DNA from: Bdellovibrio sp.
GTDB lineage: Bacteria > Bdellovibrionota > Bacteriovoracia > Bacteriovoracales > Bacteriovoracaceae
DNA: 64,000 bases
Direction: 5' to 3'
Assembly (NCBI GenBank): GCA_016187935.1
Contig: JACPIU010000008.1
Coordinates: 120,916-184,915 of the forward strand
Positions within the stretch are counted from its first letter, which is position 1. Every line of letters starts with the position of its first letter. Below the pieces are notes generated by a model, which saw nothing but the letters and a program-made list of their open reading frames with translations, did no database searches and was not told where the DNA came from. A program made the translations under genes and the position numbers. This document shows positions 4,249 to 50,963 of the stretch, piece by piece.

Positions 4249-5508
4249 CTAGGATTCTAAGGAAGAAATTTTTCGCTGCTCTTTAAAGAGAGGAAAAATC
4301 ACCACAAACCATGCTATGCATAGACCGACAAGCAACCAATCTATCAACCAAGGCATTTGAAAAAATATCAAAAAAAGTGAAATAAGTCCTTTGGAAAAAC
4401 GATAAATAACCATATCGATAATATACTTAGCGCCATATTTTTGCTCTGGGCCTAATGCATAATACATCAATTCCTTCACGGCCGAAAAAAGTGAATAATC
4501 GGTGCCCTTCATAGTTCCAAAAGCAAAAGATACAAGCATTAGGTAGGCACCGCCAAAAATTAACCCGACAAGTGATAGCAGCAAAAACAAAACGGGTACA
4601 AAAAGGTGTATTCTTCGACGAGAAAATTTCGCTAAGACATAGGGAAGGACAAAGACTTGAAGTACCAGTCCAATACTATTCACCAGCGTGTAAAGATGGC
4701 CTAAATATCTTGTTTTTAAATCCTTGTTTGGCACTAAACCGGTGAAGAGAACATCAAATTTAAAATTGGCCAAATTAATTACAAACTGTGATAGAGACAC
4801 CACCAAGCAAAGCAACGCCACATATTTACCCACCCCAGCAAGCGACAATAGTGGCGAGGGAGTTGGAGGTGTGTCAGATTCAACTTTCATTATGGTGGTG
4901 GGACCAAAAAGGCCGCGGGCAGCATAAAATGCTATAGCAGAAAGAATGACGAACAGGACGCCAATACCCAAAATCGTCTCAGTGGTAAAATAATAGGTTA
5001 GCCAACCAGTGAACAGCCCGCCAAAAATCCCCCCCAGAGAACCTAAGGCACCCAAAGGCCCATAAAAAACTTTTGCCTCTTCCAATCGCAAAGAAGCATT
5101 AGCAACACCGAAAATCATATGCACCAGCAAAACGATATATGCTTCTTTCCAGACAAATAATAAATAAGCCGAAGGCCCCCAAGACAAATTCAAAAGATAG
5201 ATGCCTCCAAAAAAGATTCCTACGGATAACAATACCGTTACATTATAGAGCTGAAAGAGTGGCCAACGTTGTTGGGCCCTATCATAAAAAAAGACACATC
5301 CCATAATGGCCAATACTGAATAGAACCAAACATAGGGCGAATTCTGCGCGCCAAAATAATGCAAAAAAAGCCCCGTCGTTGTGGAACGGAGAACGGGATA
5401 TGACATGAGAACTAAAAAAAGAGAAGCACCCAATGCCATCAAGCCGTTCCGTTTATGTACTTCCATTGTCTGAATAATTGATCGAAATGCATAAGTTTTA
5501 AATTGCAT
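4249..5508 (-). CDS. MFS-type carrier, ADP/ATP-translocase-like
   Basis: A polytopic membrane protein of 419 residues with about 11-12 hydrophobic segments. The first helices (RSTTTGLFLHYFG, then a Tyr/Trp-rich loop) and the GPLGALGSLGGIFGGL helix resemble the Npt1/Npt2 ADP/ATP-translocase-like group within the major facilitator superfamily. If that is right, it may import nucleotides or related organic anions. This assignment rests on recalled similarity and the substrate is uncertain. ATG at 5508 is preceded by GGAGAAGAGG. It is the first gene of a probable operon with the oligopeptidase. Confidence 0.65.
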   Translation of the reverse strand: MQFKTYAFRSIIQTMEVHKRNGLMALGASLFLVLMSYPVLRSTTTGLFLHYFGAQNSPYVWFYSVLAIMGCVFFYDRAQQRWPLFQLYNVTVLLSVGIFFGGIYLLNLSWGPSAYLLFVWKEAYIVLLVHMIFGVANASLRLEEAKVFYGPLGALGSLGGIFGGLFTGWLTYYFTTETILGIGVLFVILSAIAFYAARGLFGPTTIMKVESDTPPTPSPLLSLAGVGKYVALLCLVVSLSQFVINLANFKFDVLFTGLVPNKDLKTRYLGHLYTLVNSIGLVLQVFVLPYVLAKFSRRRIHLFVPVLFLLLSLVGLIFGGAYLMLVSFAFGTMKGTDYSLFSAVKELMYYALGPEQKYGAKYIIDMVIYRFSKGLISLFLIFFQMPWLIDWLLVGLCIAWFVVIFPLFKEQRKISSLES

Positions 5509-45748: not shown

Positions 45749-46993
45749 CTACAAATACTCCTCAAGTTTCTTCGGAATTTTAACTGTCCCATCACTGCGC
45801 TGATGATTTTCAAGGAGAGCAACAAGAACTCGTGGAGTTGCAATGCCTGTGCAATTGAGCGTGTGGCAAAATTTTACTTCGCCATCAATATCTCGATAAC
45901 GAAGATTTGTTCTTCTCGCTTGCCAGTCATGCAAAGTGCTCCCACTATGCGTTTCTCTGTATCGGTTTTCACTCGGCACCCACGCTTCGATGTCATTCAT
46001 TCGATATTTTCCCAGTCCCATGTCACCAGTGCAACATTCCACAATTTGATAGGGAAGCTCCAAATCAAGTAATATCTCTTCCGCTATTTCAAGCATAAAG
46101 CTATGCCATTTCGCACTCTCATCAAAATCATTTTCACATATGATGTATTGTTCAGTTTTGTTGAATTGATGAACTCTCATGATTCCACCAACATCTTTTC
46201 CTGCGCTCCCGGCCTCTTTCCGAAAACACGTCCCAAAGGCGCCATAAAGCAAAGGCAGTTGTTCCTTCTTTAAGATCTCATCGGCGTGAAGACTATTGAT
46301 GATGACTTCCCCAGTGCCAGCGAGGAGAAGTTCCTCTTGATCTAATTTATAGACTTGATCTCTTCCCGTAGGGAAATGCCCGGTTCCATAAAAGGCTTCA
46401 TCCCTTGCAAAAGCAGGAACGGCCAATAGTTTAAAATGCTTCTCTCTGAGTTTATGCAAGACGAGGCGGTGAACTGCCATTTCAATCAAGACCAAGTCAC
46501 CTTTTAGAGCATAGGCCCGTTCGCCTGCAATTCTAATAATTCTATCAAACTCGGCCCAGTCATTAATTTTAAGAAGCTCCTTATGACTCCTCAAAGGGAA
46601 ATCAAATTTCTTTTTCTCGCCGACAGTTTTAATAACAATGTTGGCTGTAGCATCTTCTCCAACCGGTGCGCTTTTTATGGGAATATTTGGGATAAGCCAC
46701 ATCAGTTCGTGAAATTCAATCTGAAGTTTCTTTACAACGTCGTTTTGCTGACTCAAGTCCGTGCCAAGTTTTCTTCCCTCTTCAATGAGACAAGTCCTCT
46801 CTTGACCATTCTTTAGAGGAACTTCCCGAGCAATAAGATTTTTTCTTGTTTGCAATTCTTGCAATTTATTTTTTTCTTCTTTCAACTTTTGATCAATCTT
46901 AAGAACTTGCCCCAAATCTAGGTTTACACCCTTATCTCTAATTGCTTTTTTAACAAGCTCAGTATTTTTTCGAATGAAATTTATATCTAACAT
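45749..46993 (-). CDS. serS: Seryl-tRNA synthetase
   Basis: Charges tRNA-Ser. The N-terminal antiparallel coiled-coil arm spans residues 30-100 (KEEKNKLQELQTRKN). Class II motif 2 is FRKEAGSAGKD and motif 3 reads NCTGIATPRVLVALLENHQ. The usual bacterial NGSGLAVGR is replaced by NCTGIATPR, and TAEV by TGEV, so this is a divergent SerRS. Length (414) is slightly short of the usual 420-430. It starts 9 nt after the aspS stop and is the second gene of the attenuated operon. RBS AGGAG precedes the ATG. Confidence 0.93.
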   Translation of the reverse strand: MLDINFIRKNTELVKKAIRDKGVNLDLGQVLKIDQKLKEEKNKLQELQTRKNLIAREVPLKNGQERTCLIEEGRKLGTDLSQQNDVVKKLQIEFHELMWLIPNIPIKSAPVGEDATANIVIKTVGEKKKFDFPLRSHKELLKINDWAEFDRIIRIAGERAYALKGDLVLIEMAVHRLVLHKLREKHFKLLAVPAFARDEAFYGTGHFPTGRDQVYKLDQEELLLAGTGEVIINSLHADEILKKEQLPLLYGAFGTCFRKEAGSAGKDVGGIMRVHQFNKTEQYIICENDFDESAKWHSFMLEIAEEILLDLELPYQIVECCTGDMGLGKYRMNDIEAWVPSENRYRETHSGSTLHDWQARRTNLRYRDIDGEVKFCHTLNCTGIATPRVLVALLENHQRSDGTVKIPKKLEEYL

Positions 46994-47002
46994 TTTCCTC
47001 TC

Positions 47003-48274
47003 CTAGGGAAAAAGCCGGGTTACATCTCGGGGAAACATAGTCGCCTCTTTGATGTTATCAAGTCCAATAATTTTTTGGGTCAATCGTTCAAGTCCCATTC
47101 CAAAACCACCATGCGGTGGTAGTCCGTATTTGTGGGCATTGGAAAAGAAAGTGAATTCTTCCACATTCATCCCTCGATACTGCATTTTTTCAATCAACTC
47201 GTGATACTCATGAATGCGCTGACCTCCGGTGGTAATTTCTATTCCTCGAAAGAGTAAATCGAAACTTTCTGTTTCTTCCCTATTGTGAAGACTTTCTTTG
47301 GCGTAGAACGGACGTTTCACTGTCGGATAATGAGTCACGAAGACAAAATCGGAACCGGTTTTCTTTTTTATGAACTCGCATATTTTGCTTTCCTCAAGGG
47401 GAGATAAATCCGGTTCTTGCCTTTCATCAATGGAATACTCTTTAAAGACCATTTCTTTGGCCTCGGAAAATTTCAAAACAGGGATTTCCTTAATTTGGGG
47501 CAACGTAATTTCCAGCAGATTCAATTCATAAGAGCATTGAGCTTCAATCGTTGCCATGATTTCTTTTAAAATTTCCTCTTCAGTCTTCATAATTTCAAAA
47601 AAACTTTTGATCGGTCCCATCTCCATATCCAGTGAAGTATATTCATTGATATGGCGGTTGGTGTTGTGTTTTTCGGCGCGGAAAACTGGGCCGACCTCAA
47701 AAACTTTTTGAAAAACGCCACAACAAAACTCTTTATAAAACTGCGGACTTTGGGCAAGGAAGGCCTTTGAACCGAAATAATTAAGTTCAAAGATATTGGC
47801 GCCTCCTTCAGCTCCTGCCTTGACTATTTTGGGAGTTCGTATTTCGCTAAATCCCTGACGGTGCAAATAAGAGCGAAATCCGATCACGATTGCCTCTTGA
47901 ATTTTAAAAATGGCCTTAATTTTGGGATGCCGCATGGAAAGCGCTCTCAAGTCAAAGAGAACACTGTTGTTTATGTTCAATTCTTTTTTTGTAATATCAA
48001 ACGGAAATATTTCCGAGGGAGTAGAAAGGGCCTCTAATGAAGTGATTTTAAGCTCAAGATCGTTGGGAAAAATCAATTTGTCTTTAATTTGCGCCTTGCG
48101 AGCAATACCGGTGAAGGCCACCGCCGATTGTTCCTTAATTGCATCAGGAAGTTCGCCTTCAAAAATGGCCTGAATAATTTTGCCATCGACAATGATATGG
48201 AGAAAAGAAAACCCTTTTAATTTTTTAATACGATAAACAATACCCGTTTTACCCATCTCTTCATTTTCCTGCAT
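47003..48274 (-). CDS. aspS: Archaeal-type aspartyl-tRNA synthetase (AspRS2, probably non-discriminating)
   Basis: 423 residues of the archaeal/eukaryotic AspRS type: GAEGGANIFEL, FGSKAFLAQSPQFYKEF, motif 2 FRAEKHNTNRH then EYTSLDMEMG, THYPTVKRPFYAK and motif 3 FGMGLERLTQKI. The bacterial GAD insertion is absent and the N-terminal OB domain is short. Such bacterial AspRS2 enzymes usually charge tRNA-Asn as well as tRNA-Asp, and GatCAB then makes Asn-tRNA. The anticodon specificity here is inferred. GGAGG precedes the ATG and an intrinsic terminator sits just before that RBS. Confidence 0.9.
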   Translation of the reverse strand: MQENEEMGKTGIVYRIKKLKGFSFLHIIVDGKIIQAIFEGELPDAIKEQSAVAFTGIARKAQIKDKLIFPNDLELKITSLEALSTPSEIFPFDITKKELNINNSVLFDLRALSMRHPKIKAIFKIQEAIVIGFRSYLHRQGFSEIRTPKIVKAGAEGGANIFELNYFGSKAFLAQSPQFYKEFCCGVFQKVFEVGPVFRAEKHNTNRHINEYTSLDMEMGPIKSFFEIMKTEEEILKEIMATIEAQCSYELNLLEITLPQIKEIPVLKFSEAKEMVFKEYSIDERQEPDLSPLEESKICEFIKKKTGSDFVFVTHYPTVKRPFYAKESLHNREETESFDLLFRGIEITTGGQRIHEYHELIEKMQYRGMNVEEFTFFSNAHKYGLPPHGGFGMGLERLTQKIIGLDNIKEATMFPRDVTRLFP

Positions 48275-48292
48275 ATTTCCTCCACAAATAAG

Positions 48293-48314
48293 AAGGCCCC
48301 GAATTCGGGGCCTT
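48293..48314 (-). terminator. Attenuator terminator in the aspS-serS leader
   Basis: Minus-strand RNA AAGGCCCC, loop GAAUUC, GGGGCCUU, then CUUAUUUG. The 8-bp perfect stem with U-rich tail lies between the leader peptide stop and the aspS Shine-Dalgarno, whose GGAGG begins about 10 nt after the stem. It cannot be only the end of the aquaporin gene, because a promoter and leader ORF lie between the two. Confidence 0.88.
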
Positions 48315-48367
48315 TTGTCTGGTGTTTTTTCTTTTGTTTATGCACACCTAGGCAGGTCCCCGAGTTC
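48301..48367 (-). promoter_or_regulatory. Antiterminator alternative pairing
   Basis: Minus-strand GAACUCGGGGACCU (48367-48354), inside leader codons 21-25, nearly repeats the terminator 3' arm (GAAUUCGGGGCCUU). It can pair with AGGCCCCGAAUUC (48313-48301) using about 12 bp, one C-A mismatch and one bulged A. This competes with terminator formation. An upstream UCCCC in codons 7-8 (within 48403-48409) can pair with the GGGGA of this segment, supplying the classic region 1. Confidence 0.72.
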
Positions 48368-48427
48368 TAAATTAGAATCATCGGAATCATCACAATCAGA
48401 AAGGGGGGATGTGCTATACCTCAACAT
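48338..48427 (-). CDS. Asp/Ser-rich leader peptide of the aspS-serS operon
   Basis: A 29-residue ORF from ATG 48427 to TAA 48338-48340. Residues 10-19 are SDCDDSDDSN: five Asp, three Ser and one Asn codons in ten. The whole peptide has six Asp and five Ser. It ends 23 nt before the terminator stem. Slow decoding of Asp, Ser or Asn codons would stall the ribosome over region 1 and release the antiterminator segment. The ATG lies 6 nt after the -10 box, so it is probably translated from a leaderless 5' end. Confidence 0.85.
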   Translation of the reverse strand: MLRYSTSPLSDCDDSDDSNLELGDLPRCA

Positions 48428-48433
48428 AAAGTC

Positions 48434-48442
48434 AGTATAGCA
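48434..48442 (-). promoter_or_regulatory. Extended -10 promoter of the aspS-serS leader
   Basis: On the minus strand TGCTATACT (48442-48434) is an extended -10 with a near-consensus hexamer. The expected start, about 7 nt downstream, coincides with the A of the leader ATG. The -35 position (ATGTAA around 48462-48457) is weak. Confidence 0.72.
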
Positions 48443-48476
48443 AAAATGAAGATTTTTTACATCTAACAAAATCTTT

Positions 48477-49280
48477 CTACTTGGATTTGCCCAACAACAT
48501 TTTATCGATAAAAAAACGGAACATGAGAGCAGTGAAAATGCCGCCCGCAATCGGACCAAGCACATAAACGACCATGGAACCGACAAAACCACCGGCCAGC
48601 GCGGCTTCACCCCATCCCGCCATATAGGCAAACAGGCGAGGGGCCAAATCGCGCGCCGGATTGAAGCCGGCCTGGGAGAGATATCCAAACAATAAAATAT
48701 TAATGGAAACACCTAATCCGATAAAGAGCGGTATCATTTCATTACCGGGACTGCCGACACTACAATCGTGAGTCAGAATCATGATAAAAAAAAGCAGGAT
48801 GGCGGTTCCCAAGAATTCGGCCATAAATCCGGTAAACATCGTCACCTTGGCGGCATCTCCGGCGGTTGGATTAGGATAAAATTCACCAAACATCATGGCC
48901 GTTTTCACGGACTCCGGAGAACCACGCACAATATTATGGAGGCCTTCATATGTCACAATGGAATCCCTGAAGACCAAATACAAGAGGGCCGCGGCCAAAA
49001 AGGCACCGACAAATTGGGCCAGAAGATAAACAGGGAGCTTCTTACACTTCATACGACCACCAAAAACTAACGCAATACTGACGGCAGGGTTCAGGTGCGC
49101 GCACGAGAGTCCCCGGGCAGAGTAGATTGCCAGGGTTACAGCGACACCCCAAATCAGACACACCTCTACGAGGCTGAGTCCCGCACCGAAAAGGATACTA
49201 ACAACAACACTGCCACAACCAAACAGCACTATAATGGCAGTACCGAGCATTTCGCCGAAAAAATCATTCAATTTTGTCAT
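48477..49280 (-). CDS. glpF: MIP-family aquaglyceroporin
   Basis: 267 residues, six membrane helices and the two NPA half-helices: HLNPAVSIAL and GFNPARDLAPR. Asp after the second NPAR is the mark of glycerol facilitators rather than strict water channels. No glycerol kinase or dehydrogenase is adjacent. It begins 12 nt after the metG stop and has a weak RBS, so it is likely expressed from the metG transcript. The symbol is by family. Confidence 0.88.
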   Translation of the reverse strand: MTKLNDFFGEMLGTAIIVLFGCGSVVVSILFGAGLSLVEVCLIWGVAVTLAIYSARGLSCAHLNPAVSIALVFGGRMKCKKLPVYLLAQFVGAFLAAALLYLVFRDSIVTYEGLHNIVRGSPESVKTAMMFGEFYPNPTAGDAAKVTMFTGFMAEFLGTAILLFFIMILTHDCSVGSPGNEMIPLFIGLGVSINILLFGYLSQAGFNPARDLAPRLFAYMAGWGEAALAGGFVGSMVVYVLGPIAGGIFTALMFRFFIDKMLLGKSK

Positions 49281-49292
49281 ACGCTATGTTTA

Positions 49293-50963
49293 CTATTCTT
49301 GGGTGGCCTCTGTTTCAATTTTCTTAAACAAGATTTCCATCTTATGCAGAGGCGTATCTCCATCAGGAAATTTGAGGGCATTCTGCCAAGGAATCTCGCT
49401 TGAAACTCCGAAAATTTGTAGGATGCTCTTGCATTTCTGGGGAAAGAACGGACGAAGAACAGCGCCCAAGAAATAAATCGACTGGAGCGAGAGGGCCAGT
49501 GTTACCTTGGTAAGCTCAATATTGGTCTTACGGGTGCTCCATGGTGCTTTGTCATTAAAATATTTGTTGCACTGACGGGCGAAATCGAAAGCGGCAATCA
49601 TAGCGCGACGAGTGGACCATGCTTGGAAACAGGAAGAAATCTCGCTAAAACAATTCTTCATACTTTCCAAATGCTCGTGGTCTTCTTTGATCATCAAGGT
49701 CGGATCATAAATGGGCAACCGATCGCCAAGAAATTTCATGGAAAAGGAAAGAGAACGATTAATGAAATTGCCCAAAGTATCGGCAAGCTCAGAATTACAA
49801 AGGGCCACAAACTCGTCATAGTCAAAATTAGAGCGACTTTTTTCCGGGGCATTGATGGTCAAATAATATCTCAGATAGTCAGGATCATTGCCATCGGCAA
49901 GGTAGTCTAAAATCCAAATGGCATTCTTGCGCGACTTGGATATTTTTTCAATCGCATCACCTTTTTTGATATTCATGAACTTATTGACGATCACACCTTT
50001 GGGAAGGCTATAACCACCATGCACGTTCAGCATAGCTATCCAAATCACGCAATGAAAAACTGTATTGTCTTCACCGATGAAGTGATAAATTTCGGCATCA
50101 CTTTTCCACCAGTCATGATAGGCCGTCGCACCAGCACCTTGGGACACCAAGAGTTCTTTGGTATTGGAAATATATCCGATCGGGGCATCAAACCAAACGT
50201 ACATAACTTTGTTCTTGGCATCGGGATCTTTGAGAGGAACTGGCAGTCCCCAGTTAATATCTCTGGTCATGCTGCGCTTGACTAATCCCGTTTGCAGCAG
50301 GCTCTCGACGTAGTTTTTGGTATCACTTCTCATATCGGCATGTTCAAGCCATTTTCTGACCTGGTCTTCGGCCTTTGAGAGATCCAGATACCAATGGACT
50401 GTCTCCTTCTTACCAACAGGAGATCCAGTCAACGCATTTCTGGGATTTTTTAAAGCATCGACGTCCAAGATTTTTCCGCAATTTTCACATTGATCCCCGG
50501 TTTGATCTTTGGCATCACAAAACGCACAATCTCCCTTGACGTAGCGATCGGGTAAGAACATGTCTTCTTTTTCATCATAAAACTGCAGACTTTTTTCTTT
50601 GGTAAAATAGCCCTTCTCATAAATCTTTAAAAAGAAATCATTGGAAAGTTCCTTGTGAAATGGATTTTTGCTGGTGGAACCAAAAACATCAAAGCGGATA
50701 TCAAGACCCTCGAAGGCCTTGCGCTGTCTTTCATGATAGTGCTGAACCATTTCTTGAGGTGTTTTGCCCTCTTTCAATCCTGACAGAACAATGGCGACGC
50801 CATGGTCGTCAGTTCCGCAGATGTAAAGTGTCTCGCGTCCATTCAACTTAAAATAGCGATTGGCAATATCGGCAGGAAGATAGCATCCAGCAATGTGACC
50901 AACATGAATGTCGCCATTGGAATATGGAAGTCCAGCGGTGATAACCATTTTTTTAGTGTTCAT
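49293..50963 (-). CDS. metG: Methionyl-tRNA synthetase
   Basis: Class I enzyme charging tRNA-Met. HIGH-type motif HVGHIAG at residue 22, a four-cysteine zinc knuckle (CAFC, CENC) near residue 145, and KISKSRKN as the KMSKS loop near 340, then the helical anticodon-binding domain. At 556 residues it lacks the C-terminal EMAP/dimerisation domain. RBS GGAGAG is just upstream of ATG. The 139-nt divergent gap to the plus-strand gene holds the promoters; none could be fixed with confidence. Confidence 0.95.
   Translation of the reverse strand: MNTKKMVITAGLPYSNGDIHVGHIAGCYLPADIANRYFKLNGRETLYICGTDDHGVAIVLSGLKEGKTPQEMVQHYHERQRKAFEGLDIRFDVFGSTSKNPFHKELSNDFFLKIYEKGYFTKEKSLQFYDEKEDMFLPDRYVKGDCAFCDAKDQTGDQCENCGKILDVDALKNPRNALTGSPVGKKETVHWYLDLSKAEDQVRKWLEHADMRSDTKNYVESLLQTGLVKRSMTRDINWGLPVPLKDPDAKNKVMYVWFDAPIGYISNTKELLVSQGAGATAYHDWWKSDAEIYHFIGEDNTVFHCVIWIAMLNVHGGYSLPKGVIVNKFMNIKKGDAIEKISKSRKNAIWILDYLADGNDPDYLRYYLTINAPEKSRSNFDYDEFVALCNSELADTLGNFINRSLSFSMKFLGDRLPIYDPTLMIKEDHEHLESMKNCFSEISSCFQAWSTRRAMIAAFDFARQCNKYFNDKAPWSTRKTNIELTKVTLALSLQSIYFLGAVLRPFFPQKCKSILQIFGVSSEIPWQNALKFPDGDTPLHKMEILFKKIETEATQE

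Follow-up and report, generated by a model that had tools for sequence, protein, structure and literature searches.

A probable ribosome-mediated attenuator with a run of Asp codons ahead of the aspS2-serS2 genes of a Bdellovibrio genome

Leader-peptide attenuation of aminoacyl-tRNA synthetase genes is known for Phe, Trp and Leu, and in the Firmicutes the T-box raises synthetase expression in response to uncharged tRNA, including that of second copies such as thrZ. The nearest precedent for the locus considered here is the auxiliary TrpRS of Streptomyces coelicolor, an antibiotic-resistant enzyme whose gene is reportedly subject to ribosome-mediated attenuation; mycobacteria are said to possess leaderless polycysteine attenuators. 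Attenuators have been described for pheST in gamma-proteobacteria and for trpS and leuS in Streptomyces (PMC1262725). A structured aspS 5' UTR predicted in Shewanella has been named only as a 'tRNA synthetase leader'. The mechanism that we propose below is already known (the trp, pheST and trpRS1 type); the open-access literature that we searched yielded no description of an Asp-reading leader, nor any paper on leader-peptide attenuation in Bdellovibrio.

The locus lies on the minus strand of the window, by which we mean the whole 64,000-nucleotide stretch of a Bdellovibrio sp. genome (G000 in our genome numbering) that was analysed. The gene aspS2 (47003..48274, with its ATG at 48274 and a GGAGG ribosome-binding site at 48279..48283) encodes a 423-aa AspRS of the archaeal or non-discriminating type, whose product passes the cut-off of NF003483 (477.8 bits; cut-off 353) and scores under that of TIGR00458 (324.8 bits; cut-off 368.4). 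A gap of 9 nt separates it from serS2 (45749..46993; TIGR00414, 409.8 bits), which by position belongs to the same operon; another serS is found on C19 of the same genome (503.6 bits), making that of the window a second SerRS gene. Upstream of aspS2, as the initial annotation had proposed, is a short leader ORF (48427-48338) of 29 codons and a stop, MLRYSTSPLSDCDDSDDSNLELGDLPRCA, which is probably leaderless and has counterparts in six relatives. It carries the cluster SDCDDSDDSN (48371..48400), in which nine of the ten codons specify Asp, Ser or Asn and five are GAT Asp codons. The GC-rich hairpin AAGGCCCCGAATTCGGGGCCTT with its tail CUUAUUUG (48314-48293; -17.4 kcal/mol), also anticipated by that annotation, follows the leader stop after 23 nt and adjoins the ribosome-binding site of aspS2; its U tail is weak, the U tracts of the six relatives being stronger. 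Against dinucleotide shuffles, the density of Asp, Ser and Asn codons in this ORF has a p of 0.0017, and that of Asp alone (four of six codons) a p of 0.0005; when the window's non-overlapping ORFs of 150 aa or more (54 in all) are ranked by upstream Asp density, aspS2 comes first.

With the S. coelicolor TrpRS gene the locus shares its kind (a synthetase gene), cognate codons in a leader ORF and, as we propose, ribosome-mediated attenuation. It differs in the amino acid (Asp against Trp), in the lineage (Bdellovibrionales against an actinobacterium) and in its organization, the single gene being replaced by an operon that also holds a second serS or cysS; further, the leader ORF here is probably leaderless, and aspS2 is the only AspRS gene found in the window's genome. 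The pheST, trpS and leuS attenuators likewise combine a leader peptide, an antiterminator (a putative one here) and a terminator before synthetase genes, but they concern other amino acids and other lineages. The polycysteine attenuators would have in common with it a leaderless short ORF with a codon run for one amino acid that controls a downstream operon, but they read Cys and do not govern synthetase genes. In the T-box, as would be the case here, uncharged tRNA raises expression of a synthetase gene, whereas there the RNA binds the tRNA directly; neither the window nor ten relatives' loci gave a match to the Rfam T-box model at its gathering cut-off, and none was listed up to an E-value of 5 for 48200-48520. 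As for the known Rfam leader families, the best score on the leader strand was that of Phe_leader (22.5 bits, under its cut-off of 55), and none matched in the ten relatives' loci scanned.

Conservation of the leader and the amino acid read

A search of 129 genomes of the family recovered twelve aspS2 loci. An Asp-run leader followed by a terminator stands directly before aspS2 in seven of them, namely the window and six relatives, and was not seen before aspS2 in the remaining five (L005, L006, L008, L056 and L058). The other leaders are MLNFSTSLIFSFPTSQYCDCDDSIINEVMLGCA, ...FIDRNDDDCCDYSWGVCLS, ...FIDRNDDDSLVYSRGSVWTR, ...KSDDDRSSLFRGRLN, MKTSRRPHSTFKFDDDSWDYLMAFV and ...FDQDDLDCDYYFASGAC. 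The seven loci thereby display two features of trp-type attenuators: a short, putatively translated leader ORF in which cognate codons cluster, here those for Asp only, and an intrinsic terminator between leader and gene, present in all seven, with a weak U tract in the window. The distance from leader stop to terminator is 23-30 nt throughout; for instance, the L004 terminator, read from sequence as a GCCCC/GGGC hairpin, lies about 29 nt past the stop. The upstream neighbours vary, being an aquaporin gene in the window, an acetyltransferase-like ORF at L032 and other ORFs elsewhere (names assigned by eye). On the AspRS tree, the genes with a leader group together, with one or two state changes; the nearest relative of the window's AspRS is that of G019, from another genus (82% identity), that of the same-genus G001 being only 58% identical. 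The leaders L001/L003 and L004/L055 form related pairs, and the seven loci are not fully independent. At the DNA level, a search of relatives had a single clear hit at the expected position, in G019, its other hits being rejected as short chance matches, and a contig scan of relatives gave three loci, G019 among them. No Asp leader with a terminator was seen ahead of the relatives' bacterial-type aspS genes, for which 20 upstream regions were covered (a few of them cut at contig ends).

To identify the amino acid being read, each of the 20 amino acids was located at its greatest density within the small upstream ORFs of each of the seven loci, and this maximum was compared with dinucleotide shuffles. 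Asp is enriched at every one of them (combined p about 4e-11, or 5e-13 with more shuffles) and is the sole enriched amino acid of the 20 over the seven leaders; Ser (combined p 0.89; 0.18 in the window alone), Asn (0.998) and Cys (0.96) are not. To judge from the comparison, it is thus Asp that the leader reads. The initial annotation had envisaged joint sensing of Asp, Ser and Asn, the last via a non-discriminating AspRS, and had suggested looking for enrichment of these three codon types before a terminator in relatives. Its core idea of a leader-peptide attenuator of aspS is well supported, in that the Asp-codon leader and terminator recur at seven of twelve aspS2 loci in varied neighbourhoods; the joint reading is not, as the relatives' leaders bear out Asp and neither Ser nor Asn. 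Further, the genome has a dedicated AsnRS of its own (TIGR00457, 590.7 bits) and the argument for Asn is hence not needed. The leader ORF, its Asp enrichment, the terminator and the conserved spacing are thereby established at the level of sequence and comparison.

These comparisons also bear on other readings of the locus. The hairpin is a perfect palindrome that follows the aquaporin stop at a distance of about 160 nt, ahead of aspS2, and might be just the terminator of that upstream gene, with the ORF arising by chance. However, leader, terminator and spacing recur at aspS2 with other upstream genes, and a chance ORF is at odds with the Asp clustering over the seven loci; the comparison of loci already contradicts this reading, which we hold to be exceedingly improbable. 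Alternatively, the leader product might be a small peptide with a function of its own, or one that arrests the ribosome, whose sequence and not the supply of Asp-tRNA would be what matters, and the close pair formed by the window and L003 does share ML..STS at the start and CA at the end, outside the Asp run. Yet the leaders are 25-35 aa long and vary widely in sequence, the Asp run alone being common to all seven, and such a peptide appears very unlikely.

More is to be said for a leader that senses the charging of both Asp and Ser (without Asn), such that a shortage of either would raise both synthetases of the operon. Ser codons do lie inside the Asp cluster, in the zone where a stalled ribosome would free the antiterminator segment; the serS2 of the window encodes a second SerRS; and the serS2 of the sister species has a Ser-rich leader of its own. 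Dual sensing would also suit G019, where the gene after aspS2 is a second cysS (L032:3001-5707) in an aspS2-cysS2 operon, the leader core being CDCDD. Nevertheless, as noted above, neither Ser nor Cys rises above the shuffles, and both also occur in Asp clusters without an adjoining second synthetase (L004, L007, L055 and L057). Hence, we regard dual sensing as doubtful and favour a leader that reads Asp.

The candidate switch and the start of the leader transcript

In every one of the seven loci, part of the leader ORF towards its end is predicted to be able to pair with the 5' arm of the terminator; in the window, the putative 5' segment of this antiterminator is CTCGGGGACCTG (48353..48364), in the last third of the ORF. 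The partners differ together across loci, e.g., CUCGGGGACC/GGCCCCG in the window, GAGGUC/GGCCUC at L003 and GGCCUUCGU/ACGAAGGCC at L059. The window duplex (-16.7 kcal/mol) has a p of 0.004 against shuffles; with shuffled leader segments as the reference, the seven loci together give a p of 0.001, single loci falling below 0.05 in three cases and being unremarkable in four, and an exchange of arms between loci favours the own partners (p 0.02). When the RNA of the window is cut before the 3' arm of the terminator, pairing of the 5' arm to upstream sequence has a probability of 0.87 for a ribosome at the Asp codons versus 0.14 for one at the stop; this model goes in the expected direction in six of the seven loci, L055 being the exception. 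Thus, computation supports the alternative pairing as that of a candidate antiterminator. At equilibrium, the full-length RNA of the window prefers the terminator for any ribosome position (0.95-0.98), implying that the switch would need a kinetic antiterminator.

A further comparison concerned promoter spacing in 18 leaders, comprising the seven for Asp along with nine for Thr and two for Ser that are described in the next section. Of the 18, 14 have a TATAAT-like hexamer whose end falls 6-8 nt upstream of the ATG (shuffles: mean 2.6, maximum 8 in 500), the four leaders without one at this spacing being L057, L059, L136 and L137. In the window, 6 nt separate the putative extended -10 TGCTATACT (48442-48434) from the leader ATG; with this spacing, the start near 48427 that had been proposed earlier is consistent with a leaderless transcript. 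This spacing, itself evident from sequence and comparison, suggests leaderless translation from the leader AUG.

Hence, we think it likely that the locus harbors a ribosome-mediated transcription attenuator that senses how fully tRNA-Asp is charged and sets expression of the aspS2-serS2 operon accordingly, with a shortage of charged Asp-tRNA probably switching AspRS on. Briefly, the RNA would start at the leader AUG or a few bases from it, and a ribosome would load on the leaderless message. With Asp-tRNA plentiful, it would reach the leader stop and cover CUCGGGGACC; the hairpin at 48314-48293 would then form and end transcription. With Asp-tRNA scarce, it would stall in the GAU run and leave CUCGGGGACC free to pair with the GGCCCCG arm once this is made, allowing RNA polymerase to continue into aspS2 and serS2. 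The stalling, the efficiency of termination and the response to charging are what we infer from this architecture.

Cognate-codon leaders of other synthetase genes and second copies

The Asp leader has parallels at other synthetase genes. The closest relatives of the window's serS2 are those of G002 (79%) and G102 (58%). In G002, the sister species, serS2 is preceded by the leader MEIIKFFHIQHYFIVGIQAAFVSSFSSLSSC, with a Ser cluster (p 0.001) and a hairpin before the gene (L144, upstream of 4763), whereas the Ser cluster of the G102 leader (L137) is weak (p 0.08). Single-copy serS orthologues have no comparable Ser leader adjoining the gene; some Ser-dense segments (e.g., SANSSSSS at L163) occur far upstream of them, in frames that may be read-through of neighbouring coding sequence. 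The gene after serS2 in G002 is a thrS2 with its own Thr leader (L144). A metG gene (556 aa; 49293-50963) lies near aspS2-serS2 in the window, and the same metG is found near serS2-thrS2 at L144 of G002; the synthetase neighbourhood is thus partly conserved between the two.

A truncated ThrRS of about 390 aa, consisting of the class II core and the anticodon domain only, is encoded in ten genomes, the window's own included. All ten thrS2 leaders have Thr codons at their end (e.g., MICLIYPHIVCITITTP), TTP preceding the stop in nine and ITP in one (L184). A CCCC/GGGG hairpin spans the leader stop codon in each of the ten, and a clear U-tailed terminator after this hairpin is absent in most, so that these leaders may act either on transcription or on translation. 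In the window's own genome thrS2 occupies L146:4958-6142 (G000:C5), with a leader at about 4790-4958; the other thrS2 loci with a Thr-codon leader are L177-L185. Given these parallel Ser and Thr leaders, the Asp unit is, on the sequence comparison, one of a set of cognate-codon leaders that mostly sit on second-copy synthetases.

The status of aspS2 itself differs between genomes. Among the seven leader genomes, five (G001, G019, G059, G102 and G110) also carry a bacterial-type AspRS, which was not found in G000 and G024; of the five genomes without a leader before aspS2, only G067 has such an AspRS. Hence, the idea of a backup enzyme suits most cases of aspS2 but not all, and in the window's genome, where aspS2 is the only AspRS found, the attenuator is possibly plain feedback control of the sole AspRS. 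The class II D/K/N core model retrieved only three proteins from this genome, namely AspRS2, AsnRS and one of 390 aa that by eye is EpmA-like, and neither a bacterial-type AspRS nor a class II LysRS.

A broader proposal, which we deem unlikely, is that the Asp leader integrates Asp and Ser charging on behalf of an operon with two alternative synthetases, and that across the family it belongs to a set of leaderless attenuators, for Asp, Ser and Thr, that hold backup enzymes off until the main enzyme fails in charging. If this were true, such failure could come from a synthetase inhibitor, e.g., a microcin C-like compound acting on AspRS or an albomycin-like one acting on SerRS. These comparisons suggest that one bacterial family has repeatedly put second or alternative synthetases for Asp, Ser and Thr under the control of the charging level of their own substrate. 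This offers a testable explanation for the persistence of duplicated synthetases, which may be induced only when charging fails.
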